Of a stretch of DNA of 64,000 nt, positions 9,454 through 58,548 are shown piece after piece. The DNA lies in NCBI GenBank assembly GCA_902778285.1, contig CACYXC010000001.1, positions 1 through 64,000 on the forward strand, in the 5' to 3' direction. Within the stretch, counting starts at the first letter, position 1. Each line of letters opens with the position of its first letter. A program made the position numbers and the translations under genes. The stretch comes from Oscillospiraceae bacterium (lineage in GTDB: Bacteria; Bacillota; Clostridia; Oscillospirales; Oscillospiraceae). The notes beneath the pieces were generated by a model. The model was not told the DNA's origin, did not search any database, and saw only the letters and a list, made by a program, of their open reading frames with translations.

Positions 9454-9461
9454 AGATTGTA

Positions 9462-13646: not shown

Positions 13647-13649
13647 AAT

Positions 13650-13752
13650 GCCTCCCCTGTGCAAGGGGAGGCGCCCCGAAGGGGCGGAGTGGTTGTTGAC
13701 TTCGCACCGAAACAACAGAGACAAACGACCAACGCAACCCCTCAGTCAGCCT
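13650..13752. repeat. R1 repeat, copy lacking its right end
   Basis: Starts GCCTCCCCTGTGCAAGGGGA and runs to CCCCTCAGTCAGC, where the match ends and the rseP ribosome site AAGGAAAGGA begins. The middle (GTTGTTGACTTCGCACCGAA) matches the 9127 copy. Confidence 0.8.
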
Positions 13753-42778: not shown

Positions 42779-43567
42779 TCAATAGTAGCTCGGCTGGGGG
42801 AGGCGGCGGTCGAGCAGGACCTTGCCGAAGCAGATGCAGCTGCGCCCGGCGTCGCGGGGGATGCTGATGTTGGCATCCTGCCGGACGGGATTGGCGGAGA
42901 GGAGGTGCAGCGTGCCGGCGTAGTCCACGCACCACTGCTTGCAGAACACGTCCCCGTCCACAAAGAAGATGCCCACGTCGAACTCCTGCAGCGGCGCGCC
43001 GCGGCGGACATAAACAAGGCTGCCGTCGGGGATGAAGGGCTCCATGCTGTCGCCGCGGACGGTGAGGCAGAAGTCCGCGCCCACAGGCGCCGCCGGGTCG
43101 AGCGGGATGTTCTCGTAATCCTCGCCCTCGATGGGGGAGGCGTAACCCGCGGCGGCGGGCACGAGATAGTGCTTGATATACACGATCTTTTCCGGCTGCT
43201 CCTCGGCCTTGTACTCCGGCTGCTGCACCAAATAGCGCCCGTAGCGGATCAGCTCGCCGCGCCCGCGCTCGTTGAGCGCGTCGTAGAGCGGCGCAATGGG
43301 GAGGACAGGCTTCGCCGGCGCGTCGGCGGCAGGGACGCTCTGTGCGTCCTCACCCAGCAGGGCGCCGCGGCTGACGCCGAAGTGCCGGGCCAGCTGCTCG
43401 ATCTTGTCCATGCGGGGCATCTGGCTTCCGCTGCAGTAGGCGGAGACTGTGGACTTGCTGACCTTAAGCAGGCGGGCGATGTCGATCTGCTTCTCGCGAT
43501 TGGTACGCATCAGACGCCGGAGATTGTCGGCAAAGAGATTGCGGTCGTAGGTGACGGGACCGGCCAT
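42779..43567 (-). CDS. XRE/S24 (CI/LexA-like) phage repressor
   Basis: 262 residues from ATG 43567 preceded by AAAGGGG. The N-terminal HTH (about 8-65) reads LFADNLRRLMRTNREKQIDI, ARLLKVSKSTVSAYCSGSQMPRMD. The C-terminal S24 peptidase domain has a cleavage-type AlaGly in PAAAGYASP near residue 160, the nucleophile Ser in VRGDSMEPFIPDG and the general-base Lys in VFCKQWCVD. Such proteins repress lytic genes and self-cleave on RecA-ssDNA activation. Divergent from the phage operon, so it probably represses the promoter at 43708. Confidence 0.9.
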   Translation of the reverse strand: MAGPVTYDRNLFADNLRRLMRTNREKQIDIARLLKVSKSTVSAYCSGSQMPRMDKIEQLARHFGVSRGALLGEDAQSVPAADAPAKPVLPIAPLYDALNERGRGELIRYGRYLVQQPEYKAEEQPEKIVYIKHYLVPAAAGYASPIEGEDYENIPLDPAAPVGADFCLTVRGDSMEPFIPDGSLVYVRRGAPLQEFDVGIFFVDGDVFCKQWCVDYAGTLHLLSANPVRQDANISIPRDAGRSCICFGKVLLDRRLPQPSYY

Positions 43568-43872
43568 AAGGGGCACCCCTTTCATTGATTCTAAGCCCAT
43601 TGTACGTTTTAACCGTAATTCTGTCAAGTTAAACATGAAATTTGTGCAAAAAAAGCGGAAATTAAGAAAGGACAACCATGCTCAGTTCGGGAAAAGGAAA
43701 CATCGACTTGACAAAACCCGGGAAATGTGGTAAACTATAACCGAACTCAACGGAGAGAAAACGTGGACCGGGGACGGCCATACGGGCAGCCGTGGGCGGA
43801 TATGAAACCTCGCGGCCTTTTTTTCTTCAAATAGTTCCGTTAAACAGAACATAACGGGGAGGGTGTGTACGG
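43568..43872. other. Divergent control region and phage operon leader
   Basis: 305 bp without a gene. AT-rich around 43580-43740, with a consensus promoter at 43708-43736. Downstream is a roughly 130-base leader with a GC-rich stem region and a TTTTTTT run at about 43819. No perfect operator palindrome was found by eye. Confidence 0.55.
43708..43736 (+). promoter_or_regulatory. Promoter of the phage operon
   Basis: Perfect TTGACA, 17-base spacer, TAAACT, in the gap divergent from the repressor. Confidence 0.75.
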
Positions 43873-43944
43873 ATGGAGCAGATACCGGACGATCCGATCG
43901 TCCGCCAGATCGAAGAGACAGGCTGGCCGTGGTGGATGCAGTGA
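43873..43944 (+). CDS. 23-residue small protein at the phage operon start
   Basis: Reads MEQIPDDPIVRQIEETGWPW plus WMQ. The string DDPIVR.IE.TG.P.W resembles tiny proteins seen near phage or mobile genes in Clostridia, by memory only. GGGGAGGG lies about 12 bases upstream. Its end overlaps the start region of the next frame. Too short for firm assignment. Confidence 0.5.
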   Translation: MEQIPDDPIVRQIEETGWPWWMQ

Positions 43945-44180
43945 AGACACGCACGGGGGGCGGGCAGCGCGCACCGATCTCCCGGGAGAGGGTGCGCAAG
44001 GCGGCGGGGGAAGCGCTGACGCAGCTGGAGACGGCGCTGGGGGAGGGGGACAGCAAGCGCGCCAGGGAGATGACCGGCGTGCTGCGGGACATGGTGCAGC
44101 TGCACCGGGAGCTGCAGGGCGGCGGGAGCCAGAGCGTGACGGTCTGCTTCGTCGGCGAGACGGAGGAGGCCGCGCGCTGA
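43941..44180 (+). CDS. Hypothetical protein in small-terminase position
   Basis: About 79 residues from GTG 43941 (GTG 43932 is an alternative). Highly charged and helical: ISRERVRKAAGEALTQLETA, REMTGVLRDMVQLHRELQGG, and a final strand SVTVCFVGETEEAAR. It lies directly before the large terminase, where the small terminase subunit is usually encoded. No helix-turn-helix motif typical of TerS was recognised. Function unproven. Confidence 0.55.
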   Translation: MKTRTGGGQRAPISRERVRKAAGEALTQLETALGEGDSKRAREMTGVLRDMVQLHRELQGGGSQSVTVCFVGETEEAAR

Positions 44181-44272
44181 GGGCGTCGGCCTCTGCGGGA
44201 GACGGCGGCGGGCGGTGCGTCTCCGCCTCCTCAAAACGCACGACTCAAAACTTCTAAACCGGGGAGGACGAA

Positions 44273-45709
44273 ATGGCGGAGCTGAAGATCCCGAGGCCGA
44301 GCGAGAAGCAGCGGCGGTTTTTGAACGACAGGCACAGGTATATCGGCTACGGCGGCGCGCGGGGCGGGGGAAAGAGCTGGGCCGTGCGCATCAAAGCGGC
44401 GCTGCTGTGCCTCAAGTACCCGGGGATCAAGGTCATGATCGTGCGCAAGACCTATCCGGAGCTGCAGGAGAACCACATCCTGCCGCTGTGCGAGCTGCTG
44501 CATGTCTACGACGAGGACAGCGAGAAGCGCCTGGCTCTGTATAACGACCAGAAGAAGCACATCGTCTTCCCCAACGGCAGCCGCATCCTCTTTCGCTACT
44601 GCGACAATGACGCGGACGCGCACCGCTTTCAGGGCACCGAGGTGGACGTGCTGTTCGTGGACGAGGCCACGCAGCAGACCGAGGAGCGCATGGACCGGCT
44701 GCGGGCCTGCGTGCGCGGCGTCAACGACTTTCCCAAGCGCATCTATTTCACCATGAACCCCGGCGGAGAGGGACACGGCTGGGTCAGGCGCCTGTTCATC
44801 GACCGCGTCTACCGCGAGGGCGAGGACGCGGCGGATTTCAGCTTCATCCCGGCGCTGGCCACCGACAACGAGGCGCTCATGCGCGCCGACCCCGACTACA
44901 TCCGCAGGCTGCGCTCCCTGCCGCCCAAGCTGCGGGACGCCTGGCTCCACGGGCGCTGGGACCTGTTCGAGGGGCAGTTTTTCGAGGACTTCCGGGTGAC
45001 GCCCGATCTGGCGGCAGCTCAAAAGTGCGGCTTTACCGATTCGTCAGAGGAGCTCAGACGCCAGCGGCGCTTCACCCACGTCATCGAGCCCTTCGACCTC
45101 TCGGCCGGGGACAAGCGGGGCTGGAGCGTGTTTCGCAGCTACGACTTCGGCTACGGGCGGCCCTTCTCCTGCGCGTGGTGGGCGGTGGATTACGACGGCG
45201 TGCTCTACCGCGTCCTCGAGCTCTACGGCTGCACCGGCACGCCGAACGAGGGCCTGCGCTGGACGCCGGAGAAGCAGTTTTCGGAGATCGCGCGCATCGA
45301 GCGGGAGCACCCCTGGCTGCGCGGGCGGCGCATCGCCGGCGTGGCCGACCCTTCGATCTGGGACGGCAGCCGGGGCGAGAGCGTAGCGGAGACGGCGGCC
45401 CGCTGCGGGATCCACTTCGTGCCGGGGGACAACCAGCGCATCCCGGGCTGGATGCAGTGCCACTACCGCCTGCAGTTCGATGAACAGGGCTATCCCCGCA
45501 TGTATGTGTTCGATACCTGCGCCGCCTTCCTGCGCACCGTGCCGCTGATGCAGTTTTCCAAAAGCTGCCCGGAGGATCTGGACAGCACGCGGGAGGACCA
45601 CGTCTGCGACGAGTGGCGCTACGCCTGCATGTCGCGACCGGTGACACCGATGCGAAAGACGGAGGACGCGAGTTTTGCGATCGATCCTCTGGCGAGGCGG
45701 CAGGCGTAG
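44273..45709 (+). CDS. Phage terminase large subunit
   Basis: 478 residues. Packaging motor ATPase/nuclease. Walker A GYGGARGGGKSWAVR near residue 30, Walker B VDVLFVDEATQQT near 130, coupling motif YFTMNPGGEGHGW. The RNase H-like nuclease domain begins at YDFGYGRPFSCAWW near 285 with the acidic residue, and VADPSIWDG. GGGGAGG lies upstream. The last 93 bases of the region, including its stop, are duplicated downstream. Codon use and GC match the host. Confidence 0.92.
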   Translation: MAELKIPRPSEKQRRFLNDRHRYIGYGGARGGGKSWAVRIKAALLCLKYPGIKVMIVRKTYPELQENHILPLCELLHVYDEDSEKRLALYNDQKKHIVFPNGSRILFRYCDNDADAHRFQGTEVDVLFVDEATQQTEERMDRLRACVRGVNDFPKRIYFTMNPGGEGHGWVRRLFIDRVYREGEDAADFSFIPALATDNEALMRADPDYIRRLRSLPPKLRDAWLHGRWDLFEGQFFEDFRVTPDLAAAQKCGFTDSSEELRRQRRFTHVIEPFDLSAGDKRGWSVFRSYDFGYGRPFSCAWWAVDYDGVLYRVLELYGCTGTPNEGLRWTPEKQFSEIARIEREHPWLRGRRIAGVADPSIWDGSRGESVAETAARCGIHFVPGDNQRIPGWMQCHYRLQFDEQGYPRMYVFDTCAAFLRTVPLMQFSKSCPEDLDSTREDHVCDEWRYACMSRPVTPMRKTEDASFAIDPLARRQA

Positions 45710-45928
45710 CGCCGGGGCCCCCGGCAAAGCCGGAGGCTTTGACGGGGGAGAGGAGGAAGGAGGCCGCGGATATGGCGCTCTTCCGGCTCTTCCGAAAACC
45801 GGGGGAGCAGAATGGAGCGGCCTTCTTCTGACGACACGCCTGCATGTCGCGACCGGTGACACCGATGCGAAAGACGGAGGACGCGGGTTTTGCGATCGAT
45901 CCTCTGGCGAGGCGGCAGGCGTAGCGCC
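45621..45928. repeat. G-type element flanked by 93-bp direct duplications
   Basis: 45621-45713 (terminase 3' end, stop and GCGCC) recurs at 45836-45928 with a single base difference. The 122 bp between begins GGGGCCCCCGGCAAAGCC and ends GGCCTTCTTCTGACGAC; its complement resembles the in-frame insert of the Prp-like gene at 48017-48130 (CAGAAGAAG start, GGGGGCCCC end). Confidence 0.88.
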
Positions 45929-46039
45929 CATGAGAACGCATAGCACCCAGCGCATAGCACTTAGCCCCTAACGCCTGAAAAAGAGCGCGTAGGAGAGTGG
46001 AGCGCTAAGCACCAGGCGCTGAAAGAAAGGATGGATGAA
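45710..46039. other. 330-bp gene-free gap between terminase and portal
   Basis: Made up of the G-type element, the second copy of the terminase 3' end and a D-type repeat (45940-46030: AGCGCATAGCACTTAGCCCC, GAGCGCTAAGCACCAGGCGC). No gene. Confidence 0.75.
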
Positions 46040-47896
46040 ATGTCAAGCATGACCCCGGAGCGGCTGCGGGAGTTCACCGCGCAGCTCCAGAAGTACAAGA
46101 CGGGCAAGGCCAGCCTGGAGCGGCGGGTGGTCTCCGCCGAAAACTGGTGGAAGCTGCGCAACCGCTTCGAGGAGCGGCGCGGCGGTCTCGGCGACGACGG
46201 CGGCTACCGCTCGGAGAGCGGGTGGCTGCATAACGTCATCGTCTCCAAGCACGCCGACGCGATGGAGGCCTACCCCGAGCCGCTGATCCTGCCGCGGGAG
46301 CCGGGAGACCGGGAGCAGGCGCGGCTGCTGTCGGCGATCCTGCCCTGCGTTCTGGAGCAGAACCGCTTCGAAAAGACCTACGACGCCGCCATGTGGCAGA
46401 AGCTCAAGACCGGCACCGCCTGCTACCGCGTCGTCTGGGACCCGGACAAGTGCGGCGGCCTCGGCGATATCGCCATCGAGCGGGTGGACCTGCTCAACCT
46501 CTTCTGGGAGCCGGGCGTGGACGATATCCAGAAAAGCCGCTATTTCTTCTGCACCCATCTGGAGGATGAGGAGAGCCTGTGCGAGCGCTATCCGCAGCTG
46601 CGCGGAAGGCTTCGCTCCTCGCCGTTCATGGCAACGCGCTTCGTCTACGACGACACGGTGAGCCTTGAGGGCAAGGTCACGGTCATCGAGGTCTATTACA
46701 AGAAGCGCGGCGTGCTGCACTACTGCAGGTACGTGGGGGATACGGCGCTGTACGCGACGGAGGAAGCGCGGGACGCCGAGGGCGTCGTCCCCTACGGCAC
46801 GGAGGAACGGGACGTCGAGGACGCCGTCCCCTACAGCGGAGAGAAGGGCCTTTATGCACACGGGAAGTACCCCTTCGTGTTCGACCCGCTGTTTCCCGTG
46901 GAGGGCAGCCCCTGCGGCTACGGCTTTGTGGACCTCTGCGCCAACGTCCAGACCGCCATCGACCTGATGCGCACCGCCTTCGTCAAGAACACGCTGGTCG
47001 GCGCTACGCCCCGCTACTTCCAGCGCATCGACGGCTCGGTCAACGAGGAGGAGTTCACCGATCTGAGCCGCGCGCTGGTGCATGTCAGCGGCAATCTGGG
47101 CGAGGACAGCCTGCGGCAGATCGGCTTTGCGGGGCTGCCCGGCGTCTATGTCAGCGTGCTGGAGTCGGCCATCCGCGAGCTGCGCGAGACCTCCGGCAAC
47201 ACCGAGACCGCCAACGGGACCATGAACGTGGGCGTGACCGCCGCCTCCGCGATTGCAGCGCTGCAGGAGGCCAGCGGCAAGGGCAGCCGGGACGCGACAC
47301 GCGCCTCCTATCTCGCCTTTGCCGAGATCGTGGAGCTGTGCATCGAGCTGATCCGCCAGTTCTACAGTCTGCCGCGGCAGTTTCGCATCACGGGGAGCTT
47401 CGGCGGGGCGGATTTCGTGACCCTGGACAACCGGGCGCTGCTGCCGCGGGCGCTGCCCGGGCTCGAGGCCCTGAGTCAGCCGAGCTTTGACATCCGCGTG
47501 TCCGCGCAGAAGCGAAACGCCTACTCCCGTCTGAGCCAGAACGAGCTGGCGATGGAGCTCTACCGCATGGGCCTGTTCGAGCCCGGCCACGAGCAGCAGG
47601 CGCTGGGCCTGCTGGACATGATGGAGTTCGACGGCCGGGAGCAGCTGATGCTGCGTCTGAGCGCCGGGCTCGGCCTGCGGGAGAAGCTGCGGGAGCTGAC
47701 GGCCTACAAGGCGCTGGCGGTGGCGCTGGCCCGGCGCTACCGGCCCGACTTGGCGGCGGGGCTGCTGGGCGGCGAGAGCCCCGCTTCCGGGCTGCCCGCC
47801 GCGGATGAGGCAGCTCCCCCGGCGGAGAATGCCGGCGCGCCGGATCCGGTGGTGAGCGCCCGCGCGGCGGCCAGTACGGCGGGGATCCCGGAATGA
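46040..47896 (+). CDS. Phage portal protein
   Basis: 618 residues, long and closer in size to P22-like portals than to siphophage ones. ATG 46040 is chosen because AAAGG ends nine bases before it; ATG 46031 touches that site. Features: LREFTAQLQKYKTG and WWKLRNRFEE at the N-terminus, MWQKLKTGTACYRVVWDPDK, YPFVFDPLFPVEGSPCGYGF, VDLCANVQTAIDLMRTAFVK, and the TANGTMNVGVTAASAIAALQ stem-like region. Residues about 244-268 are a 13-residue tandem repeat (RDAEGVVPYGTEE/RDVEDAVPYSGEK) made from B-type repeat DNA. It overlaps the next gene by four bases. Confidence 0.85.
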   Translation: MSSMTPERLREFTAQLQKYKTGKASLERRVVSAENWWKLRNRFEERRGGLGDDGGYRSESGWLHNVIVSKHADAMEAYPEPLILPREPGDREQARLLSAILPCVLEQNRFEKTYDAAMWQKLKTGTACYRVVWDPDKCGGLGDIAIERVDLLNLFWEPGVDDIQKSRYFFCTHLEDEESLCERYPQLRGRLRSSPFMATRFVYDDTVSLEGKVTVIEVYYKKRGVLHYCRYVGDTALYATEEARDAEGVVPYGTEERDVEDAVPYSGEKGLYAHGKYPFVFDPLFPVEGSPCGYGFVDLCANVQTAIDLMRTAFVKNTLVGATPRYFQRIDGSVNEEEFTDLSRALVHVSGNLGEDSLRQIGFAGLPGVYVSVLESAIRELRETSGNTETANGTMNVGVTAASAIAALQEASGKGSRDATRASYLAFAEIVELCIELIRQFYSLPRQFRITGSFGGADFVTLDNRALLPRALPGLEALSQPSFDIRVSAQKRNAYSRLSQNELAMELYRMGLFEPGHEQQALGLLDMMEFDGREQLMLRLSAGLGLREKLRELTAYKALAVALARRYRPDLAAGLLGGESPASGLPAADEAAPPAENAGAPDPVVSARAAASTAGIPE

Positions 47897-48285
47897 CGAG
47901 CGTACGATACGATCCTGCCGTGCCGGAGATGGTCTTCACCGGGCACGCCGGGGCCGCAGAAGCGGGGCGGGATCCCGTCTGCGCCGCGCTGAGCATGCTG
48001 ATGTTCACTCTGGCGTCAGAAGAAGCTCACTCCGCTCCGTTTTCCCGTGAAAAAGGGAAAACTGCGCATCCGTTCCCTCCTTCTTCCTTATCCCCGTCAA
48101 AGCGCGAAGGCTTTGCCGGGGGCCCCGGGGGTGCGAACGGAACACGGGAACTCTGCGTAGAGATTCAGGACGGGTACTGCCGGGCCTGCGGCGGAGAGAG
48201 GGCGGTCTATGAGGTGATCGCCGCGGGGCTTCGGCTGCTCGCGGCGGAGTACCCGGAGCATGTGAGTCTGGAGGTGAAGACATGA
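47893..48285 (+). CDS. Prp-like cysteine protease carrying a repeat insert
   Basis: 130 residues. The start (VRYDPAVPEMVFTGHAGAAE, GRDPVCAALSMLMFTLA) matches the catalytic His (GHA) and Cys (DPVCAA, usually DIVCAA) segments of Prp, the protease that trims ribosomal protein bL27 in Firmicutes and staphylococcal phage capsid proteins. Residues about 42-79 are encoded by a 114-bp G-type element, exactly 38 codons. After it, VEIQDGYCRACGGE and YEVIAAGLRLLAAEYPEHV resume the family pattern. Here a capsid-processing role is likely. ATGA overlaps link both neighbours. Confidence 0.7.
   Translation: MTSVRYDPAVPEMVFTGHAGAAEAGRDPVCAALSMLMFTLASEEAHSAPFSREKGKTAHPFPPSSLSPSKREGFAGGPGGANGTRELCVEIQDGYCRACGGERAVYEVIAAGLRLLAAEYPEHVSLEVKT
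48017..48130. repeat. G-type element inside the Prp-like gene
   Basis: CAGAAGAAGCTCACTCCGC at the left, CCCGTCAAAGCGCGAAGGC and GCCGGGGGCCCCGG at the right. Inverse orientation to the copy at 45714. Its length is a multiple of three and adds no stop codon. Confidence 0.75.
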
Positions 48286-48917
48286 CGCAGGAGGTCCTGG
48301 ATTCCCTGCAGGGGGAGACAAAGCCGGAAGCGGCAGAAGAAACGGCCCCGAAAAGGGAAGTGGAAGAGAAACCCCTCCGACCCGGCGATGCCGTACCGCC
48401 TCCCCTCACAGGGGAGGAAGAGGGTTCTGAACGACCGAATCAAGCGGAAAGAGACCCCTCATCCGCCCCTTCGGGGCACCTTCCCCTCAAGGGGAAGGCA
48501 GAGGAGCGGAACCGAAGGGCGAGCGGTGAAAACGCTTTCGTGCCGGATGCCCGGAAACTGCGTGAGCATCTCGCCCTGCTGCGCGCGCAGGCGGCGGAGA
48601 TGCCCGGCTTCGATCTGGAGCAGGCGCTGCGCGATCCGGCCTTCGTGCGGCTGACCGCGCCGGGCGTGGGTGTGCCGGTGCGCGACGCCTGGTACGCGCT
48701 GCACCGGGAGGAGACCGAGCGGCGGAGAAGTGAGGAGAACCGCGCGATGCTGGCGAGGGCGGCGGCCGCCTCCGCCCGGCGGCCCCGGGAGGGGGGAGGC
48801 AGCGGCGGCACGGCGCTGATCGCCGCCGACTACCGGAGCCTCAGCCGCGCCGAGCAGCTTCGCGTCAAGCAGCGGATCTTCGAGGCCGGCGCAAGAGGGG
48901 AGAAGGTCTATCCCTGA
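48282..48917 (+). CDS. Scaffold-like phage protein with a repeat-derived N-terminal segment
   Basis: 211 residues, between the protease and the major capsid gene, where scaffolding proteins lie. It is acidic at the N-terminus (MTQEVLDSLQGETKPEAAEE), then residues about 39-73 are encoded by R1-type hairpin DNA (PPPLTGEEEG ... SSAPSGHLPLKGKAEE). After that, ARKLREHLALLRAQAAEMPG and RVKQRIFEAGARGEKVYP are helical and charged. No enzymatic motif. The scaffold role is inferred from position and composition. Confidence 0.6.
   Translation: MTQEVLDSLQGETKPEAAEETAPKREVEEKPLRPGDAVPPPLTGEEEGSERPNQAERDPSSAPSGHLPLKGKAEERNRRASGENAFVPDARKLREHLALLRAQAAEMPGFDLEQALRDPAFVRLTAPGVGVPVRDAWYALHREETERRRSEENRAMLARAAAASARRPREGGGSGGTALIAADYRSLSRAEQLRVKQRIFEAGARGEKVYP
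48398..48500. repeat. R1-type repeat inside the scaffold-like gene
   Basis: GCCTCCCCTCACAGGGGAGG hairpin and, after about 45 bases, ACCCCTCATCCGCCCCTTCG with a CTTCCCC/GGGGAAGG hairpin, as in the intergenic copies, but read through in frame. Confidence 0.75.
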
Positions 48918-48981
48918 ACCCATGCCTGTCATACGGACTGCTTCCCCAGAGGAGGAGGGCAGGGAGACCGGATAAACGGAC

Positions 48982-49033
48982 GCCCCTCATCCGTCCGCTC
49001 CGCGGACAGCTTCCCCCGAGGGGGAAGCCTATT
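48982..49033 (+). repeat. R1-type short repeat before the capsid gene
   Basis: CCCCTCATCCGTCCGCTCCG, then GGAC and CTTCCCCCGAGGGGGAAG hairpin. The capsid gene's ribosome site GGAAAGGAGA begins right after it. Confidence 0.8.
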
Positions 49034-49050
49034 TGGAAAGGAGATTGTGA

Positions 49051-50145
49051 ATGAACATCAATCTGCAGTTTTTTGCCGATGCCGGGACGCTGGTCAACGG
49101 CACGGAAAACTATGTGAACGCCGGCACCGGCGCGACCACCGCGTTCACTGACAGCAAGACCCTCAGCCCGGAGCTGAAGGCCTTCTATGACACGGAGCTT
49201 CTGGAAAACGCCCGCACGGAACTGTTCTACGCGCAGTTTGCCAAGCGCCAGCCCCTGCCCGCCAACCACAAGGGCCAGGTGGAGTGGCGCAAGTGGAACA
49301 CCTTTGACCGCGCCGCCAAGCTCACCGAGGGTGTGATCCCCACGGGCCAGAAGTTCGGCGTCACGACCGTGACCGGCGCGGTCGATCAGTACGGCACCTA
49401 CACCTCCATCACCGACAAGCTGGAGCTGCGCGCCTACGACGACGTGATCCTCGGCGCGACCGAGGAGATGGGCGCCTCCGCCGCCGAGACGCAGGAGAAG
49501 CTGATCCGCGACGCGCTGCTGCTGGGCACGAACGTGCTCTACTGCGACAACATCAACCCCGCCACCGGCGCGGCGGCCAGCGGCAGCGGCGTGGTGGCCA
49601 CGCCCGCAGGCTGCGCCCAGATGGAGGCCAGCGCCTCCGCCATGAGCATGCTGACCCCGGCCATGATCAACAAGGCCGTCACCATCATGAAGAAAAACCG
49701 CGTGCCCCGTATCAACGGCCGCTATTACGCGGTGATCCACCCCAGCGTGGCCCACGACCTGCGCTCCTGCGAGGGCTGGATCGAGGCCCACAAGTATGCC
49801 GCGCCCGAGGAGCTCTTCAACGGCGAGATCGGCGAGCTGCACGGCGTGCGCTTCATCGAGAACGTCTTTGCGCCCGTGCTGGCCGGCGACGACTACAAGA
49901 ACAAGGCCAACACCTGCACCTACGCCAGCTACTTCTTCGGCAAGGACGCCTTCGGCATCATCGACCCCGAGGGCGGCGCGCTGGAGATGATCATCCACGA
50001 CAAGGGCGAGATCGGCGGTCCGCTGAACCAGTTCAGCACCATCGGCTACAAGTTCGAGACCAACGGCGCAACCATCCTCTATCCCGAGCGCCTGCTGCGC
50101 GTGATGAGCTGCTCCAGCTTCTCCGCCAGCGACGAGGTGAACTGA
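49051..50145 (+). CDS. N4-gp56 family major capsid protein
   Basis: 364 residues. HK97-like-fold capsid subunit of the N4 gp56 family: NINLQFFADAGTL start, LSPELKAFYDTELLENARTE, FYAQFAKRQPLPANHKGQVE, RKWNTFDRAAKLTEGVIPTG, GQYGT-like segment DQYGTYTSITDKLELRAYDD, and HGVRFIENVFAP in the C-terminal half. No obvious pro-domain: the N-terminus resembles the mature form. The ATG follows GGAAAGGAGA next to a repeat hairpin. It is the central structural gene of the block. Confidence 0.92.
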   Translation: MNINLQFFADAGTLVNGTENYVNAGTGATTAFTDSKTLSPELKAFYDTELLENARTELFYAQFAKRQPLPANHKGQVEWRKWNTFDRAAKLTEGVIPTGQKFGVTTVTGAVDQYGTYTSITDKLELRAYDDVILGATEEMGASAAETQEKLIRDALLLGTNVLYCDNINPATGAAASGSGVVATPAGCAQMEASASAMSMLTPAMINKAVTIMKKNRVPRINGRYYAVIHPSVAHDLRSCEGWIEAHKYAAPEELFNGEIGELHGVRFIENVFAPVLAGDDYKNKANTCTYASYFFGKDAFGIIDPEGGALEMIIHDKGEIGGPLNQFSTIGYKFETNGATILYPERLLRVMSCSSFSASDEVN

Positions 50146-50167
50146 GAAACAGAGGGCGGGATGGGGA

Positions 50168-50217
50168 GACCTCATCCGGCCCTTCGGGCCACCTTCCCCG
50201 TGCGCGGGGAAGGCAAA
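50168..50217 (+). repeat. R1-type short repeat after the capsid gene
   Basis: GACCTCATCCGGCCCTTCGG, CCTTCCCCGTGCGCGGGGAAGG, then the ribosome site AAGGAAAGGA of the next gene. Confidence 0.8.
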
Positions 50218-50228
50218 AAGGAAAGGAT

Positions 50229-50447
50229 ATGAAAATGAGCGAGAAACGTGTGGAAGTCTCCGTCCCGAGAGGGGCGGAGCGCGAGGACCCCAATCTCTTC
50301 GTGGGCATCAACGGCATGAGCTATCTGCTGCCCAAGGGCAAGAAGTCCAGCGTGCCGGCGGAGGTGGCGCAGGAGATCGCGCGCAGCGAGCGCGCCCGCG
50401 ACGCGCTGGACGCGACCATGGACAGCCTGCAGAGGGCCAAGGCATGA
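50229..50447 (+). CDS. Small phage head-associated hypothetical protein
   Basis: 72 residues. VEVSVPRGAEREDPNLFVGI and NGMSYLLPKGKKSSVPAEVA, then a helix with EIARSERARDALDATMDSLQ. Proteins of this size and 'FV.VNG..Y.IP.G' pattern commonly follow major capsid genes in Clostridial phages; their role may be decoration or head completion (inference). It ends in ATGA, overlapping the next gene. Confidence 0.7.
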   Translation: MKMSEKRVEVSVPRGAEREDPNLFVGINGMSYLLPKGKKSSVPAEVAQEIARSERARDALDATMDSLQRAKA

Positions 50448-50815
50448 CCGCGGGCGAGCTGATCGCCCAGGTGGACAGGCTGCGCCCCAACCAGTACTGC
50501 GCGGAGGAAAAGCTGCAGTGGCTGCGGCGCCTCGACGGGCAGATCCGCAGGGAGCTGGACGGCACCCATGAGCCGCAGGGCGCGCAGCCGGACGGCGCGG
50601 ACGAGCCCTACACCGAGGACACGGTGCTGCGCGTGGGCTTTCCCTACGACACGGAGCTGTATACCGCCTATCTCTTCAGTCAGATCGACCTGCACAACGG
50701 GGAGATCGGCAAGTACAACCAGAGCCTGACGCTGCTCTCCGCCGCCTGGCGTCAGCTGGCCGACAGCATCAACCGCGAGCGCCTGCCCAAACAGAAGGGC
50801 GCCTGGCGGCTCTGA
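50444..50815 (+). CDS. Phage head-tail connector-like hypothetical protein
   Basis: 123 residues. The N-terminal TAGELIAQVDRLRPNQYCAE EKLQWL segment and later FPYDTELYTAYLFSQIDLHN, YNQSLTLLSAAWRQLADSIN are helical, like the small adaptor proteins located between capsid and tail genes. No enzymatic motif. The adaptor role is inferred from gene order. ATG lies in ATGA shared with the upstream stop. Confidence 0.6.
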   Translation: MTAGELIAQVDRLRPNQYCAEEKLQWLRRLDGQIRRELDGTHEPQGAQPDGADEPYTEDTVLRVGFPYDTELYTAYLFSQIDLHNGEIGKYNQSLTLLSAAWRQLADSINRERLPKQKGAWRL

Positions 50816-50872
50816 GCGCGCGGCCTCCCCGGCGCGGCCCGAGGGGGCCGGAGGCGGAGGAAAGGAGCAAAC

Positions 50873-52624: not shown

Positions 52625-52642
52625 GGCGGGGAGGCGAACGCA

Positions 52643-53443
52643 ATGTATGAATACCCGCCCATCCTGACGGGCAGCGAACAGCAGCAGCTCCTCGCCCTGC
52701 GGGATTATCTGGTGCGCCTGGCGCAGAGCATGGAGAAGCTGCAGCAGGCGCAGCCGGCCGCCGGAGCGGAGGACGGCGGGATGGGCAGGCCCCTCCCCGA
52801 CGCCCGGGATCATAAGGCGGCGCGGGAGCAGGAGGACAGGTTCGCCGCCCTGCGGCGAAACGCGGCGAATCTGCGCGCTCTCATCGTCAAGACCGCCGGG
52901 GAAGCGGATACGCTCGCCATGGAGCTCGGCGCGGTGCGGCAGGATATGGAGAGCCGCTATCTCGCCAAGTCCGACTTCGGCGAATACATGGAGCAGGTGA
53001 AGACGAGCTTCACGGCGACGGCGCGGGGCGTGGTGGAGAGCTACGACTTCGCCTCGCTGATCGAGGCGGTCAACGACCGGGCCGACGCGCTGGACCTCTA
53101 CATGACGGCCATCCGCGGCGAGATCCGGCGCGGACTCATCACCGACCCGGGCACGGGGGAGACCGTGACGGGCATCGCCATCGCGGAGAACCTCCAGTTC
53201 ACCGGCGAGGTGCACGAGGAGGACGGTCTGAAATACTACGAGCTGGCGCCTGGTCAGACTCTCGGCCTGTACACGGCCACGGGCTGGCAGTTCTGGGTCA
53301 ACGGTTCCAAGCGCGGCTGGTTCGACTCGCGCGACGGCAGGCTGCACGTGATCAGCGAGGTTGTGGAGGACGGTCTGCAGCTCGGCGCGGACTGGGCCGT
53401 CTCCACCGCGGGCGGCTTCGGGATCAAGTATCTCGGGGCGTGA
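52643..53443 (+). CDS. Phage tail-region hypothetical protein
   Basis: 266 residues. An N-terminal helical region (about 1-110) with coiled-coil character (LLALRDYLVRLAQSMEKLQQ, LRALIVKTAGEADTLAMELG) leads into a beta-rich C-terminal part: TGIAIAENLQFTGEVHEEDG, LYTATGWQFWVNGSKRGWFD, HVISEVVEDGLQLGADWAVS. This resembles the distal ends of tail fibres or baseplate proteins that read 'W.F..NG...G.FDS.D'. The host receptor cannot be judged. GGGGAGG upstream. Confidence 0.6.
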   Translation: MYEYPPILTGSEQQQLLALRDYLVRLAQSMEKLQQAQPAAGAEDGGMGRPLPDARDHKAAREQEDRFAALRRNAANLRALIVKTAGEADTLAMELGAVRQDMESRYLAKSDFGEYMEQVKTSFTATARGVVESYDFASLIEAVNDRADALDLYMTAIRGEIRRGLITDPGTGETVTGIAIAENLQFTGEVHEEDGLKYYELAPGQTLGLYTATGWQFWVNGSKRGWFDSRDGRLHVISEVVEDGLQLGADWAVSTAGGFGIKYLGA

Positions 53444-53499
53444 GGATCGCAGGGAGACGAGCGGAGCGGACGGGCAATGCTCGCCCCTGCGGGAGAGAC

Positions 53500-53552
53500 A
53501 GAGACCTCATCCGGCGCTGCGCGCCGCCTTCCCCAGAGGGGAAGGCTATAAG
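53500..53552 (+). repeat. R1-type short repeat before the DUF859-like gene
   Basis: GACCTCATCCGGCGCTGCGC, GCC, CCTTCCCCAGAGGGGAAGG, then CTATAAGGAAAGGA as ribosome site. A B-like GCGGACGGGCAATGCTCGCCC lies just before it. Confidence 0.8.
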
Positions 53553-53566
53553 GAAAGGATTGGAAC

Positions 53567-55369
53567 ATGAACACGACGGCGACATGGTACCGCGGCGTGA
53601 ACGCCGCGACCGGGGAGTATATCGGGAACATCGGCTACGACGGCGGGGCGCTGGTGGGGCGCTTCGCCTTCACGACCGGCGCGGCCGGGGCCGGCACGCT
53701 CAGCTTCCGCACGAGCGATCTGGGCCCTGCGGGCTCGAGCGACTGGGGCAGCGGCAATTATGACAAGTTCCATTTCCGCATCACGGGGACGGGCACTTCT
53801 CTGGCCGGACATACGGGCACCGATGGCAGCGCCGTCGGCGTTTACTGGCCGGACACGAGCACGCACTACCTGACGAGCGGCGGGACCGTCAACGTGACGC
53901 TGCAGCCGAACACGACGTATTACCTCTGGATCTACCCGGACACGACGAGCTACAACCGCTGGCAGATCGGCGGCGTGAGCGTCACGCTCAGCGGCAGCTA
54001 CGGAAACGCGGCCGATCCCGCGGCGGGGAACGGGTATTTCGGCGAGAGCCTTGGCATCACGCTCTCGGGCGGCAGCGCCGGCGCGGCCTACACCGTGTCG
54101 GTCGCCTGCGCGGGACGGACGGAGACGCTGCAGACCAAAGGGAGCGCGACGGTGCTCGGCTGGACGCCGACGGTCGCGGTCTTCGCGCCGCTGCTGCCGA
54201 ACGCCGCGAGCGCACAGGCGACGATCACGGTACAGACCTGGTACGGCAGCTTCCTGGCCGGGAGCCGAAGCGTCAGCGTGACGCTGCGCTTTCGGGCGGA
54301 GGACGTCGCGCCGACGGTCAGCGAGGGCTGGTACAGCCACGCGCCGTACAACACCGGCGCGGCGGCCGCGATCGCCCGCTATATTTCCGGCATCAGCAGG
54401 GCGGCGTTCAACTTCCGGGCGGATCGGGTGAGCACGAAGTACGGCGCGTCCATCGCGGGCTATACCGTCAGCTGCAGGGGAAACAGCGCGGCGGAAAGCC
54501 CCTGGCGGACGCCGGTACTGAACGGGGAGACCGCGATCACCGTCACGGTGCGCGACTCCCGCGGCTTCAGCGCCTCGGAAAGTCTCACGCTCACGCCGCT
54601 GAGCTACGCGGCGCCGACGCTTGCCGACGTGAGCGTATTCCGCTGTGACGAAAACGGGATGGCGGCCGAGGACGGGCAGTACTGCTCGGTGAGCGCGTCG
54701 GCGGTGTTCAGCGCGCTGGCGGGGGACAACAGCGCCTCCATCCTGCGCTCTCTGCGCGTGCTGTCCGGGAGCTTCGGCGCGGAAACACTCCAGCCGGACG
54801 GCCAGAGCGTGATCGTACCCGCGCTGGACCCGGACCTGAACTATGAGCTGAAGCTGGAGATCCGGGACGCGGTGGGCGGCAGCGGCGTGATCCTGCGGCA
54901 GATCCCGGGACGGCGCTGGGCCATAAAATTCCACCCTACGGGCGCGGGCGTGGGCTTCGGGATGGCACCCCAGGGGGCGCTGCGGCTGGAGATCCCGGAG
55001 ACCTGGGAGATCCGGCGCGGCGCGGAGCGCTACGTCCCGCTGACGGAGAGCGGCAGCAGCGGTATCTGGCGCTGGCGAAAATGGGACGACGGCAGCTTCG
55101 AGCTGCTCGGCAGCACAAGCGTCAGCGCCGATGTGAACAGAAACTGGGGCGCGCTGTACTACGCGGCGGTCCTCAGCAGCGTGAGCTACCCCTTCCCGAT
55201 CACGGCCATCGACTACGCCGCCGCGTCCGTCGCGGACATCTACTGCTGGGCGATGGGGAATCTCGGCGCGAGCCTGAGCGATACCGGCAATGTCTATGTG
55301 CTCAGCGCCGCGGCGCGCACCGGGCTGAGCCTCCCGCTGCGCCTGCTGATCCGCGGCAGATGGCAATGA
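53567..55369 (+). CDS. DUF859-like phage minor structural protein
   Basis: 600 residues, beta-rich and Ser/Thr/Gly-rich. The mid part looks like tandem Ig-like or fibronectin-like modules (YTVSVACAGRTETLQTKGSA, TVLGWTPTVAVFAPLLPNAA, VSVTLRFRAEDVAPTVS). The later part (ISRAAFNFRADRVSTKYGAS, RDSRGFSASESLTLTPLSYA, KFHPTGAGVGFGMAPQGALR) matches the DUF859 pattern of siphophage minor tail proteins, whose typical 'G.GFGM.P..G..ALE' is seen. The C-terminal 90 residues may be a head or knob domain. Probably a fibre or spike for cell contact. Confidence 0.72.
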   Translation: MNTTATWYRGVNAATGEYIGNIGYDGGALVGRFAFTTGAAGAGTLSFRTSDLGPAGSSDWGSGNYDKFHFRITGTGTSLAGHTGTDGSAVGVYWPDTSTHYLTSGGTVNVTLQPNTTYYLWIYPDTTSYNRWQIGGVSVTLSGSYGNAADPAAGNGYFGESLGITLSGGSAGAAYTVSVACAGRTETLQTKGSATVLGWTPTVAVFAPLLPNAASAQATITVQTWYGSFLAGSRSVSVTLRFRAEDVAPTVSEGWYSHAPYNTGAAAAIARYISGISRAAFNFRADRVSTKYGASIAGYTVSCRGNSAAESPWRTPVLNGETAITVTVRDSRGFSASESLTLTPLSYAAPTLADVSVFRCDENGMAAEDGQYCSVSASAVFSALAGDNSASILRSLRVLSGSFGAETLQPDGQSVIVPALDPDLNYELKLEIRDAVGGSGVILRQIPGRRWAIKFHPTGAGVGFGMAPQGALRLEIPETWEIRRGAERYVPLTESGSSGIWRWRKWDDGSFELLGSTSVSADVNRNWGALYYAAVLSSVSYPFPITAIDYAAASVADIYCWAMGNLGASLSDTGNVYVLSAAARTGLSLPLRLLIRGRWQ

Positions 55370-55390
55370 GCTTATGACAGGAGAGAAGAC

Positions 55391-56203
55391 ATGGAAGTGA
55401 ACAGAATCATTGAGGTCCCGGGGCAGACCTGGGACGAGCGGCAGAGCGACGCGGAGCTGGACGCGCTGTACGCCGCCATCACCGGCCGCCAGCCCTTTCG
55501 GTACCGGGCGCAGGACGATCCGCTCTACCGCAGCTATGCCGACCGCTACGTCCAGAACGGACGCATGGCCATGCGCGACAGCGTGGGCACGGCCGCGGCG
55601 CTGACCGGCGGCTACGGCTCCAGCTACGCCCAGCGCGTGGGCCAGCAGCAGTACGACGAATACCTGCGGCTTCTGAGCGAGGCGCTGCCGGAGCTCTACG
55701 GCATGGCCTACGAGCAGTATCGGGACGAGGGCGCGGCCCTGCGCGAGCAGTACGATCTGGCCCATCAGCGCAGCGCCGACGCCTACTCCCGTGAGCGCGA
55801 CAGGCAGGCAGACGCCTATCAGCGGCAGCGCGACGCGCTCTCCGACGAGCGCTATCGGAGCGAGCAGCAGGCAAAGGCATCCCAGCAGAGCTACAGGCAG
55901 CAGCAGGACAACTACCAGAAGCTGTATAAGCTGATCACATTCTCGGGTTATGTGCCCACCGACGAGGAGCTGCGGGCCGCGGGGCTGACGCGGGCCTCCG
56001 CCGAAGCGCTGCGAAAGGAGTACGAGCGGACGCACGGCGGCGGCCAGCAGTCCAACGCGGCCGCTTACCGGAGCGGCACGCCGCAGCAGGAGAAGAAGGA
56101 GAGCGCGCCGGTCATAAAAAGCGCCGCCCGCGCGGCGTCGGGCGGCGGCAAAACGAGCGGCGGGGGCGGAGCGGGCTTCAAAAACACGCTCACCCAGCGC
56201 TGA
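55391..56203 (+). CDS. Gln/Arg-rich coiled-coil phage protein
   Basis: 270 residues. The centre is strongly helical and rich in Gln, Arg, Asp and Tyr (residues about 95-185: EQYDLAHQRSADAYSRERDR, QADAYQRQRDALSDERYRSE), probably coiled coil. Before it, YADRYVQNGRMAMRDSVGTA and GGYGSSYAQRVGQQQYDEYL are family-like in Clostridial phage genomes. FSGYVPTDEELRAAGLT follows; the tail is a disordered Gly/Lys/Ser stretch. It might be an internal virion or tail-needle type protein; function unknown. GGAG upstream. Confidence 0.6.
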   Translation: MEVNRIIEVPGQTWDERQSDAELDALYAAITGRQPFRYRAQDDPLYRSYADRYVQNGRMAMRDSVGTAAALTGGYGSSYAQRVGQQQYDEYLRLLSEALPELYGMAYEQYRDEGAALREQYDLAHQRSADAYSRERDRQADAYQRQRDALSDERYRSEQQAKASQQSYRQQQDNYQKLYKLITFSGYVPTDEELRAAGLTRASAEALRKEYERTHGGGQQSNAAAYRSGTPQQEKKESAPVIKSAARAASGGGKTSGGGGAGFKNTLTQR

Positions 56204-56214
56204 GGACGGGGAAT

Positions 56215-57015
56215 ATGACGGAAAATGAACTGAGGCAGCAGGTCTGCGGCACAGCGCGGGCCTGGCTGGGCAGACGGGAAGCGGACGGCAGCCACCGCGA
56301 GATCATCGACGTGTACAACAGCATCTCGCCGCTGCCGAGGGGCTACCGGATGACTTACGGCGATGCGTGGTGCGCGGCCTTCGTTTCGGCAGTCGGCGCG
56401 AAGGCCGGGCTGGGCGCGCTGCTCTATCCCGAGTGCGCCTGCGAGCCGATGATCGCGCTGTATCGGAAGGCCGGGCGCTGGGAGGAGCAGGACTGCGCCA
56501 TTCCCCGGCCGGGCGATGTGATCTTTTACGACTGGGAGGATGCCGGCGTCGGCGACTGCCGCGGTGCGAGCGACCATGTGGGCATCGTGCTGGAACTGGA
56601 CGGCGACGTGATCACGGTCGTCGAGGGCAACAAGTCCGACGCCGTGGGCCTGCGAAAGCTGCACGTCGACTCCCGCTTCATCCGGGGCTACGGAAAGCCG
56701 GACTACCTGTCCCTTGCGGAGAAGGAGCACATCGAGCGCCCTGCGCCCGCGCCGGAGAAGACGGGGGAGACGGCCGTGCCGGAGCTGGAGGCGGAGCTGA
56801 GGCTTCCCTGGCTGCGGCGCGGCGATACGGGGGAGAGCGTGCGCGCAGCGCAGCTGCTGCTGATCGGCCGCGGCTTTCGCTGCGGCCCCTGGGGCGCGGA
56901 CGGCGATTTCGGCCCGGCCACCTACGGCGCGCTCTTCCAGTTCCAGCGCGCGAAAAAGCTCTCGGCGGACGGCGTGCTGGGCCCGGAGAGCTGGAAGGCG
57001 CTGCTGGGGGTGTGA
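56215..57015 (+). CDS. Endolysin: CHAP/NlpC-like amidase plus peptidoglycan-binding domain
   Basis: 266 residues, no signal peptide. The N-terminal cysteine peptidase-type domain (about 5-165) has Cys in YGDAWCAAFVSAVG near 50, His in SDHVGIVLEL near 120 and Asn in VVEGNKSD near 140. A Pro/Glu linker is followed by a PG_binding_1 domain (about 195-265): LRRGDTGESVRAAQLLLIGR, GPWGADGDFGPATYGALFQF, LSADGVLGPESWKALLG. It cuts wall peptide bonds at lysis and would reach the wall through the holin-type proteins encoded next. Confidence 0.88.
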   Translation: MTENELRQQVCGTARAWLGRREADGSHREIIDVYNSISPLPRGYRMTYGDAWCAAFVSAVGAKAGLGALLYPECACEPMIALYRKAGRWEEQDCAIPRPGDVIFYDWEDAGVGDCRGASDHVGIVLELDGDVITVVEGNKSDAVGLRKLHVDSRFIRGYGKPDYLSLAEKEHIERPAPAPEKTGETAVPELEAELRLPWLRRGDTGESVRAAQLLLIGRGFRCGPWGADGDFGPATYGALFQFQRAKKLSADGVLGPESWKALLGV

Positions 57016-57018
57016 GCG

Positions 57019-57288
57019 ATGTACATCGGCATTCAGGATCTGATCACGGCCTCGGCGGTCCTCGCCGCGGCGCTCGCGCTGCTGGGCTACTACAACCGGG
57101 CCTACAACTGGTACCGCAAGCAGCAGCGGCAGGAGGAGGACATCGCCGCGCTGAAGGAGGAGCAGGGCCTGCTGACCTACGGCGTGCTGGCCTGCCTGAA
57201 GGGGCTGAAGGAGCAGGGCTGCAACGGCCCGGTGACGGAGGCCATCGAAAAGATCGAAAAGCACCTGAACAACAAGGCACACCGCTGA
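57019..57288 (+). CDS. Small membrane protein of the lysis cassette
   Basis: 89 residues. One N-terminal helix (DLITASAVLAAALALLGYYN) then a basic and helical tail (WYRKQQRQEEDIAALKEEQG, TEAIEKIEKHLNN). It sits between endolysin and holin, three bases after the endolysin stop. It may be a holin partner or a phage membrane accessory. Family not recognised. Confidence 0.65.
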   Translation: MYIGIQDLITASAVLAAALALLGYYNRAYNWYRKQQRQEEDIAALKEEQGLLTYGVLACLKGLKEQGCNGPVTEAIEKIEKHLNNKAHR

Positions 57289-57328
57289 GGGCGGGCGCTG
57301 AAAAAGGAGAGGGGCGGGGTACAAACGC

Positions 57329-57382
57329 CCCTCATCCGCCCCGGTGCTCACACCGGGGCACCTTCCCCCGAGGGGGAAGGCT
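57329..57382 (+). repeat. R1-type short repeat before the holin gene
   Basis: CCCCTCATCCGCCCCGGTGC, CACCGGGGC, CCTTCCCCCGAGGGGGAAGG, then GCAGAGAAAGGAGA as ribosome site. Confidence 0.78.
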
Positions 57383-57400
57383 GCAGAGAAAGGAGATAGT

Positions 57401-57643
57401 ATGGAAATTACCGGAATCACCCTGATCTGTTATCTGGGCGGGCTGGGCGTCAAGCTTTCACCGCTGGACAACAAATGGATCCCGCTGCTCTGCGGCCTGC
57501 TGGGCGGTCTGCTGGGCCTGCTGGCCATGGGCGTCATGCCGGACTTCCCGGCCTCGAACCTGATCGACGCCGCGGCGGTGGGCATCGCCTCGGGCCTGGC
57601 CGCCACCGGCGCCGACCAGGCGGTCAAACAGCTGGCAGGCTGA
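57401..57643 (+). CDS. Phage holin
   Basis: 80 residues with two to three helices: ITLICYLGGLGVKLSPLDNK, IPLLCGLLGGLLGLLAMGVM, and NLIDAAAVGIASGLAATGAD followed by QAVKQL. This is the pattern of the Hol44-type phage holin family (GLASTGANQ..KQ). Holins open the membrane for the endolysin. ATG 57401 has AAAGGAGA eight bases upstream. It is the last phage gene of the block; no terminator was seen after it. Confidence 0.82.
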   Translation: MEITGITLICYLGGLGVKLSPLDNKWIPLLCGLLGGLLGLLAMGVMPDFPASNLIDAAAVGIASGLAATGADQAVKQLAG

Positions 57644-57726: not shown

Positions 57727-58548
57727 ATGAACATGAGGTACCCGCTTATGCTTTATGCGATCCTGTTTCTGCTCTGCGCGCTGGCCGCCGCCTGGGCGGT
57801 CGTGGCGCTGGCCCACTGGCACTGGCTGCTGGGCGTGCCGGTTTTCGTGCTGGCCTTTGCGCTGATGCACGCGGTCTACGTTTTGATTTGGTGGCTGCTG
57901 ACGCTTCCGGTGGACCGATCGAAGCCCATTGAGAAGCAGAATCCGCGCGCGCGGGAGGCCTGCCGCGGCGTGGGCCGCTTCCTCTGTCTTTACGGCGGGC
58001 TCAGGCCCCACATCAGCGGGGAGGAAAAGCTTCCGACGGACAGCCGCTTCCTCTTCGTCTGCAACCACCGCTCCATGTTCGACCCGCTGATCGTGATCGG
58101 CTACCTCTACAAGTGGAACATCTCCTTCATCTCCAAACCCTCCAACATGGCCATCCCCCTCGCGGGGGACATCGCCTACAACGCGGGCTATCTGCCCATC
58201 GACCGGGAGAATGACCGCGCCGCGCTCAAAACCATCCTCACCGCCGCAGACTATATGAAGCGCGATCTCTGCTCCATCGGCATCTACCCGGAGGGCACCC
58301 GCACAAAAGACGGGGAGCTGCTGCCCTTCCACAGCGGCTCCTTCAAGACCGCACAGCGCGCAAAGGTCCCCATAGCCGTGGCCTGCGTCCGCGGGACGGA
58401 GAAGATCAAAAAACGGCTGCTCCTGCGGCCCACCGACGTGTATCTGGACATCCTCGAGCTGATCCCGGCGGATCGGGTCTGCGCCATGAGCACGGCGGAG
58501 CTGGCGGAGTACAGCAGAAAGCGCATCGAAGAGGGGCTGAAAGCATGA
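57727..58548 (+). CDS. 1-acyl-sn-glycerol-3-phosphate acyltransferase (PlsC-like)
   Basis: 273 residues. Two N-terminal helices (about 5-60) anchor the protein; the acyltransferase domain has the catalytic HX4D motif in CNHRSMFDPLIV near residue 117, and IYPEGTRTKDGELLPFHSGS (EGTR) near 193. It makes phosphatidic acid for membrane lipids. A short spacing to the upstream promoter suggests start at 57727 or the ATG two codons later. It overlaps the SDR gene by four bases. Confidence 0.9.
   Translation: MNMRYPLMLYAILFLLCALAAAWAVVALAHWHWLLGVPVFVLAFALMHAVYVLIWWLLTLPVDRSKPIEKQNPRAREACRGVGRFLCLYGGLRPHISGEEKLPTDSRFLFVCNHRSMFDPLIVIGYLYKWNISFISKPSNMAIPLAGDIAYNAGYLPIDRENDRAALKTILTAADYMKRDLCSIGIYPEGTRTKDGELLPFHSGSFKTAQRAKVPIAVACVRGTEKIKKRLLLRPTDVYLDILELIPADRVCAMSTAELAEYSRKRIEEGLKA

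Follow-up and report, generated by a model that had tools for sequence, protein, structure and literature searches.

A podovirus-type operon for DNA packaging, particle assembly and lysis next to plsC as a candidate gene transfer agent in an Oscillospiraceae genus of animal guts

Introduction

What is a set of phage-type head, tail and lysis genes doing in a bacterial chromosome when no integrase or replication gene is seen beside it? The question is raised by a 64,000-nucleotide stretch of DNA from an Oscillospiraceae bacterium (hereafter the window; contig CACYXC010000001.1, positions 1 to 64,000), which holds an intact phage-type morphogenesis and lysis block at positions 42779-57643. A sequence-only reading of this DNA had left two explanations side by side: long vertical residence as a domesticated unit, either GTA-like (see below) or bacteriocin-like, or a slowly decaying prophage.

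The cluster of RcGTA, the gene transfer agent (GTA) of Rhodobacter capsulatus, comprises ~14-15 kb of head-tail genes without integrase or replication genes, and its tail is of the siphovirus type; P22 and the Bacillus phage Page-type are podoviruses. As set out by Kogay et al. (PMC9662315), a GTA is defined by six features, namely particle proteins derived from tailed phages, endogenization, vertical inheritance, packaging of mostly random host DNA, a head unable to hold its own locus, and DNA delivery. Besides, Sherlock et al. proposed the absence of an N-terminal helix-turn-helix (HTH) from the small terminase TerS as a mark of the GTA type (PMC6854486). GTA-like packaging has been seen in the Oscillospiraceae genus Onthomonas, and an Onthomonas MAG was among four searched for operons, a strong candidate being described for one of them, F. 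prausnitzii 925_bin.142 (PMC12946183). Our literature search, judged by titles, found no description of a block such as the present one, and none on Limivicinus together with prophage.

Results

The block forms a single contiguous operon of ~15 kb and carries an S24 repressor of its own (Table 1). Family matches bore out the gene set that had been read from repressor to holin, all 16 frames examined have a terminal and no internal stop, and ~92% of the stretch (13,635 of 14,865 bases) is coding. GC3 values are 0.69-0.93 in block genes versus 0.86-0.92 in six flanking host genes. Host repeats had been reported in and between the block genes without breaking their frames, which we confirmed for the part of the repeats that was checked. 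The repeat at 53501-53570 has further copies at 9271-9459 and, inside the block, at 50166-50238; that at 48462-48500, within the scaffold-like gene, recurs at 13649-13688; and those inside the portal gene (46808) and the Prp gene (48076) have second copies at 42646 and 45712, respectively. No tRNA was found in the window.

Table 1. Coordinates of the block features and of the adjoining host genes in the window
Feature	Position	Strand	Basis
S24-type repressor with HTH	42779..43585	-	S24/HTH family match; adjoins block in 13/13 group A genomes
Divergent promoter/operator region	43586..43872	.	alignment of close relatives
Conserved 23-codon ORF (MEQIPDDPI...)	43873..43944	+	stop overlaps possible TerS start
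Small terminase TerS, no recognisable N-terminal HTH	43941..44180	+	position and C-terminal similarity to relatives
Large terminase TerL	44273..45709	+	Terminase_3/6N match
P22-type portal	46031..47896	+	P22_portal 99.7 bits, cut-off 26.1
Prp-like cysteine protease, with in-frame repeat	47893..48285	+	37.1 bits, cut-off 27
Scaffold-like protein, with in-frame repeat	48282..48917	+	phrog_13908; role by position
N4-gp56 family major capsid protein	49051..50145	+	TIGR04387, 193 bits, cut-off 60
Small virion-module protein, 72 aa	50229..50447	+	phrog_15239
Head-tail connector candidate	50444..50815	+	phrog_12105 (no named function); role inferred from position and size
Tail nozzle, P22 gp10-like fold, 583 aa	50873..52624	+	phrog_511; structure model
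Tail/fibre candidate 1	52643..53443	+	weak phrog_22827 match; position
DUF859 tail fibre-like protein	53567..55369	+	DUF859 match
Gln-rich protein, 270 aa	55391..56203	+	no family above cut-off
Endolysin (CHAP and peptidoglycan-binding)	56215..57015	+	domain matches
Small protein beside holin	57019..57288	+	phrog_1009
Holin (Hol44)	57401..57643	+	Hol44 match
Host plsC, fixed 3' neighbour	57727..58548	+	family match; synteny
Host PMT-type gene, 5' neighbour (window and three relatives)	40277..42043	+	family match; synteny

Tail tube and tape measure genes had been noted as lacking. They are indeed absent, but neither is expected, since the tail is of the short podovirus type: the structure model identifies the 583-aa protein as a P22 gp10-type nozzle, which together with the P22-type portal predicts a podovirus-type particle. 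Missing tail genes were therefore discarded as a sign of decay. In sequence searches of the PDB, the portal gave a single weak match (8fjf, E 0.0016) and the capsid none, while a capsid search over 5.8 billion proteins returned 6285 relatives. An order-wide search found the capsid in 57 of 394 genomes and 31 of 169 genera.

In a genus sample of 102 genomes, one per species and including the window's own, a TerL of the window type (76-100%) occurs in 13 (group A: G000, G122, G111, G074, G068, G033, G069, G118, G034, G030, G085, G004 and G013); going by record titles, most relatives are from the guts of ruminants and other animals. The repressor adjoins the block in all 13. Synteny between the PMT-type gene and plsC, proposed earlier as a check, proved fixed on the plsC side and variable on the other. 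plsC lies 3' of the block in all 11 testable group A genomes (G000, G122, G111, G085, G069, G030, G074, G033, G068, G034 and G004), a count that leaves aside G118, whose contig stops 320 bases past plsC, and G013, in which plsC was not found; in several group A genomes the block is split across contigs and each flank was seen separately. The window-type 5' flank genes (Fe-ADH type, HAD, PMT and neighbours) are present in nine of the 13, the PMT gene being adjacent in the window, G122, G033 and G074, and the Fe-ADH-type gene being nearest in G030, G034 and G085, which suggests a local inversion. None of these flank genes was detected in G118 across 3.9 kb beyond the repressor, nor in G111, G068 and G004 within 2.3, 1.2 and 0.2 kb past it.

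Clean empty sites exist, too. In G063, G036 and G021, plsC is separated from the Fe-ADH-type gene by 198, 176 and 357 bp, respectively, with no block between. Either some lineages have thus lost the block, or it was gained after them; as these three genomes are nested in the A host clade, loss is favoured over later gain. Besides, in G012 the repressor still adjoins plsC but no block is present at this site, and G098 and G121 have neither. Block fragments are also catalogued as viral contigs in IMG/VR (L112 and L113); L112 ends in plsC and hence is chromosome.

Related modules occupy other addresses. In 22 genomes of species other than those of group A (B1), TerL lies ~2 kb from the threonine synthase gene thrC. 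In the 15 of these with a mapped thrC side, the gene of an ImmA-type peptidase (Peptidase_M78) lies between the two in every case, and that of an HTH repressor in 14. The 3' flanks of six B1 genomes agree only in the close pair G115/G027. No B1-type regulator was found at thrC of the group A genomes G111, G068 and G033 (flank up to 1.5 kb). A third version (B2) sits behind a galU-type gene in five of five genomes (G026, G091, G017, G025 and G105), with a pepF-type gene in four and an ImmA/HTH pair; galU and pepF are interpretive labels, and the families of the B1 regulators were assigned from one member each. By their TerL, G036 and G094 also count as B2-type, the galU neighbour being seen in neither. 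Either repeated capture or the relocation of a single ancestor could account for the thrC and galU addresses.

Family searches of the block frames recognised no integrase, excisionase or replication gene, as the sequence-only reading had stated. The genome has 11 tyrosine integrase matches, all on contigs other than the block's own of 96 kb. When three query proteins, the G097 serine integrase and the L131 RecT and YqaJ, were searched against 135 sequences, eight gave a match: both loci from which the queries were taken, one G074 contig present in two copies, and four further relatives. None of the A, B1 and B2 stretches covered by this search showed a homologue, nor did the window. Among the matches listed, a serine integrase (family assignment checked for G097) lies 11.6-12.9 kb upstream of TerL in G097, G019 and G070, and a tyrosine integrase occurs on the block's contig in G104, which has a thrC-type block, and ~10 kb from the block, beyond host genes, in G069. 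The combination that characterises a temperate prophage, an integrase with replication or recombination genes, was not found in the window block.

In a 34-row tree of TerL and portal, the 10 rows of A and the 16 of B1 each form one clade (SH-aLRT 99). In the midpoint-rooted tree of plsC and fabG (38 rows), B1 again comes out as one clade (97). The A genomes group with G036, G021 and G063 in another (99); the exception is G004, whose long branch falls with G012 and G098, both of which lack a block at plsC, and group A needs three changes on this tree. Judged from these genes, block and host trees largely agree. Block and host distances correlate with r 0.81 in A (1 of 2000 permutations as high) and 0.95 in B1 (0 of 2000); in B1, the block is not linked to plsC and fabG. 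However, in a control of 13 genus genomes with a more distant, prophage-type TerL (a serine integrase lies upstream in G019 and G070, the two checked), TerL and plsC likewise correlate (r 0.735, 0 of 2000), compared with 0.88 for A and 0.87 for B1 by the same measure; the B2 set, only four taxa with both genes, gave r 0.805, reached by 251 of 2000 permutations. As co-divergence alone cannot separate a GTA from a host-restricted phage, we dropped it as sole proof, and the claim of vertical descent is carried by position and gene content together with the correlation.

Pairwise NG86 comparisons over 14 species pairs (8 from group A, 6 from B1), a check that the sequence-only reading had called for, yielded dN/dS ratios of 0.02-0.26 for TerL, 0.04-0.29 for the portal, 0.05-0.31 for the capsid and 0.06-0.32 for the nozzle, next to 0.08-0.43 for the host gene plsC and 0.04-0.36 for fabG (13 pairs each); the block is thus under purifying selection. 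The DUF859 protein (0.24-0.73), TerS (0.14-0.66) and connector (0.03-0.58) evolve faster, and the scaffold-like and endolysin genes both reach 0.54; the ratios of TerS, Prp and the scaffold-like gene stay below 1. Block and host dS are similar in several close pairs, e.g. G106-G114 (TerL 0.18 and portal 0.15 versus plsC 0.18, fabG 0.15 and thrC 0.12), whereas in G111-G068 the block values (TerL 0.41, nozzle 0.69, DUF859 protein 0.95) exceed those of the host (plsC 0.29, fabG 0.31, thrC 0.14). Tree agreement and similar dS disfavour a phage at a reused att site.

The core of the window TerS has 79-83 aa (its longest frame starts at 43863) and was modelled as one two-helix hairpin (pLDDT 71.5, alignment of 5). 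Upstream of TerL, an N-terminal TerS HTH was recognised in 15 of 21 B1 loci, 6 of 8 B2-type loci and 10 of 11 other relatives (G019, whose locus begins at TerL, was dropped), and in none of the 13 group A loci, the two best of which scored 2.2 bits (E 8.0) and 6.6 bits (E 0.33). Fourteen segments went into the HMM and are themselves among its 31 positives (7 of the 10 other, 2 of the 6 B2 and 5 of the 15 B1), and a very diverged HTH could escape this model; since all seeds are non-A, the group A negatives are unaffected by the seeding. The TerS mark of Sherlock et al. is accordingly seen throughout group A, and such a TerS favours a GTA over a killing particle.

As for control, the window repressor contains what we take to be an Ala-Gly (AG) cleavage site and the serine (GDSMEP) and lysine (FCKQW) motifs. 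In the gap between repressor and TerS, aligned for seven close genomes, TTGAC is conserved in all seven (TTGACA in six) along with a -10-like box in all seven, and a GTTC-N9-GAAC palindrome in five; of the 12 group A loci scanned with a motif pattern, 8 carry the 23-codon ORF. From the repressor motifs and the conserved promoter region we infer that the block may be under DNA-damage control.

Discussion

We propose to read the block as an apparently vertically inherited chromosomal operon next to plsC that encodes a podovirus-type particle with its packaging and lysis functions and likely works as a GTA, a reading to which we assign a probability of about 0.62. Long vertical residence as a domesticated unit, one of the two options of the sequence-only reading, is supported by synteny, empty sites, low dN/dS and tree agreement, and the same four observations, synteny across species included, speak against the other, a slowly decaying prophage. 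Of the six GTA features listed by Kogay et al. (PMC9662315), three are seen in the sequence: particle proteins derived from tailed phages (family matches, nozzle model), full endogenization (the plsC neighbour in 11 of 11 testable genomes, no tyrosine integrase on the window contig), and mostly vertical inheritance with co-diversification, the last with the caveats of the control correlation (0.735) and of G004, misplaced in the host tree. Given these three features and a layout unlike the two operons of FpGTA, the GTA of Faecalibacterium, we call the block GTA-like; it is not a proven GTA and is known here from its genes alone.

FpGTA (Borodovich et al. 2026, PMC12946183; capsid and portal RCH50849.1 and RCH50851.1) is the closest known system, compared here by description only. 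As far as that account goes, both are podovirus-like, have a TerS without obvious DNA-binding domain, occur in gut Clostridia, and share TerL, portal, scaffold, capsid, fibre, holin and endolysin in the absence of replication genes. However, FpGTA consists of two operons, ~125 kb apart in one complete genome, while the window block is a single operon with an S24 repressor. RcGTA is described as sharing the HTH-less TerS (PMC6854486) and vertical inheritance (PMC9662315), yet it has a 49-nm tail (PMC9662315) where the block has a P22-type nozzle. Its control is host-encoded, whereas the block has a phage-type repressor inside the cluster. Among prophage-type relatives, L131 and L159 from rumen or gut Clostridia show the same order of TerL, portal, scaffold-like, capsid, connector and nozzle genes, and the L131 capsid is 72% identical to that of the window; but such relatives (e.g. 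L131, L159 and G074:C58) have YqaJ/RecT-type genes and an HTH-bearing TerS, neither of which was found in the window block. P22 and the Page-type phages share the P22-type portal family and the gp10-type nozzle fold, yet they are full phages (~40 kb in the Page type) of remote sequence similarity only, the window capsid being 29% identical to those of Page-type phages.

If the GTA reading is correct, DNA damage would lead RecA to trigger self-cleavage of the S24 repressor, which would free the promoter before TerS. Portal, scaffold, Prp and capsid would then build the head; TerS, without a sequence-reading domain, would let TerL begin packaging at any point of the host DNA, by the headful; connector, nozzle and fibres would complete the short tail; holin and endolysin would lyse the cell; and the particle would inject host DNA into kin.

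A domesticated particle might instead keep phage head and short tail to kill kin rather than to transfer genes, being SOS-induced and released by lysis like PBSX, a GTA-like element whose DNA is not injected and which acts as a tailocin (PMC12946183). We consider this unlikely. Intact lysis genes would suit it, as would the DUF859 tail protein, which is among the fastest-evolving, as receptor-binding parts may be; however, TerL, portal and capsid are strongly conserved, TerS, Prp and the scaffold-like gene show dN/dS below 1, and the change in TerS points to packaging, whose gear killing does not need, the tailocin activity described for PBSX notwithstanding.

More doubtful still is a host-restricted temperate podovirus in slow decay that has lost its integrase and replication genes and whose shared position reflects one old insertion. 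Relatives resembling full prophages do exist, with a serine integrase or RecT/YqaJ genes, the block is absent at the site in G036, G021 and G063, and prophage-type TerL tracks its hosts as well. Against this stand the lack of any broken gene in the window, a dN/dS below 1 across species separated by an average plsC protein difference of one third, and the conserved regulator and promoter; a dead insertion of that age would be expected in fragments. A very compact phage that is still active and inserts itself at plsC time and again via an integrase encoded elsewhere, or that serves satellites, strikes us as highly improbable: the tyrosine integrases of G104 and G069 and the listing of L112 and L113 as viral contigs fit it, but the tyrosine integrase-free block contig of the window genome, the largely matching block and host trees, similar dS in several near pairs, and the chromosomal nature of L112 do not.

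Beyond plsC, the same podovirus module may have become fixed at plsC, thrC and galU, each version following its own host clade with its own regulators, and TerS may have shed its DNA-reading domain more than once. That this reflects recurrent domestication or relocation of a podovirus-type GTA, and offers a genetic candidate for the unexplained GTA-like packaging in gut Oscillospiraceae, is a tentative proposal that we hold at somewhat less than even odds.

If the GTA reading of the plsC block is true, it would be a second case of a podovirus-type GTA, in a single-operon layout with its own S24 repressor. The step from HTH-bearing TerS in prophage-type relatives to a TerS that lacks the HTH, as in the plsC blocks and some of the thrC blocks, would then provide a natural series for the packaging step between phage and GTA, and virus catalogues would be listing pieces of such host elements as viruses. 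Since related blocks are spread over many species within a single gut genus, the GTA reading would also supply a concrete route of gene flow in gut communities.

Architecture of the window block

Ahead of the candidate small terminase gene (TerS), we observed a 23-codon ORF (MEQIPDDPI...) whose stop overlaps a putative start of TerS and which a motif scan recovered in 8 of 12 loci of group A, the genomes with a window-type large terminase (TerL). This putative ORF may represent a leader peptide or a coupled micro-gene. Further downstream, the 3' end of TerL has been copied into the gap ahead of the portal gene (a duplication of 93 bp, matching at 98.9%), and repeat copies lie in frame within coding genes of the block.

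Features of the window block
Feature	Window position	Remark
23-codon ORF	43873-43944	
TerL 3' duplication, both copies	45621-45713 and 45836-45928	
In-frame repeat copy	46808-46834	inside portal gene; no stop introduced
In-frame repeat copy	48076-48128	inside Prp (cysteine protease) gene; no stop introduced
In-frame repeat copy	48462-48500	inside scaffold-like gene; no stop introduced

In G074, G022, G031, G036, G075, G070 and G019, the capsid gene is lengthened by an in-frame insert, ~60-80 aa in size and located close to residue 288; the capsid frame of genome G110 is of similar length, and its match extends to residue 290. Two contigs of the virus catalogue IMG/VR (L112 and L113) are fragments of the window's chromosomal block or of that of a near relative, with L112 continuing into plsC.

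Related blocks, and a possible repressor remnant beside plsC

A single genome, G074, harbours a group A block as well as a prophage-type copy, on contigs G074:C33 and G074:C58 (L256, L347); the prophage-type copy has RecT/YqaJ homologues and an HTH-bearing TerS. Related blocks lie beside thrC in group B1. A tyrosine integrase (G104:C38:1053-1634) shares its contig with one such thrC-type block, 3' of it. At the thrC locus of G029 (L324), the ImmA/HTH pair is present, yet TerL was not found in this genome (90% complete), reflecting either loss of the block or a contig break.

Among 26 scanned genomes, 16 of group B1 (e.g. L237, L242, L259, L297) contained an orphan S24-domain ORF adjacent to plsC, in the place taken in group A by repressor and block, while G012 had a complete repressor and nine genomes had neither. 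Measuring 107-181 aa from stop to stop, the orphan ORF matches the C-terminal half of the window repressor at 40-48%; the HTH is gone and the catalytic residues are replaced (Ser by Cys, Ala or Thr; Lys by Arg). An ancestral block at the plsC site may have left this orphan S24 ORF behind in group B1 as a conserved relic.
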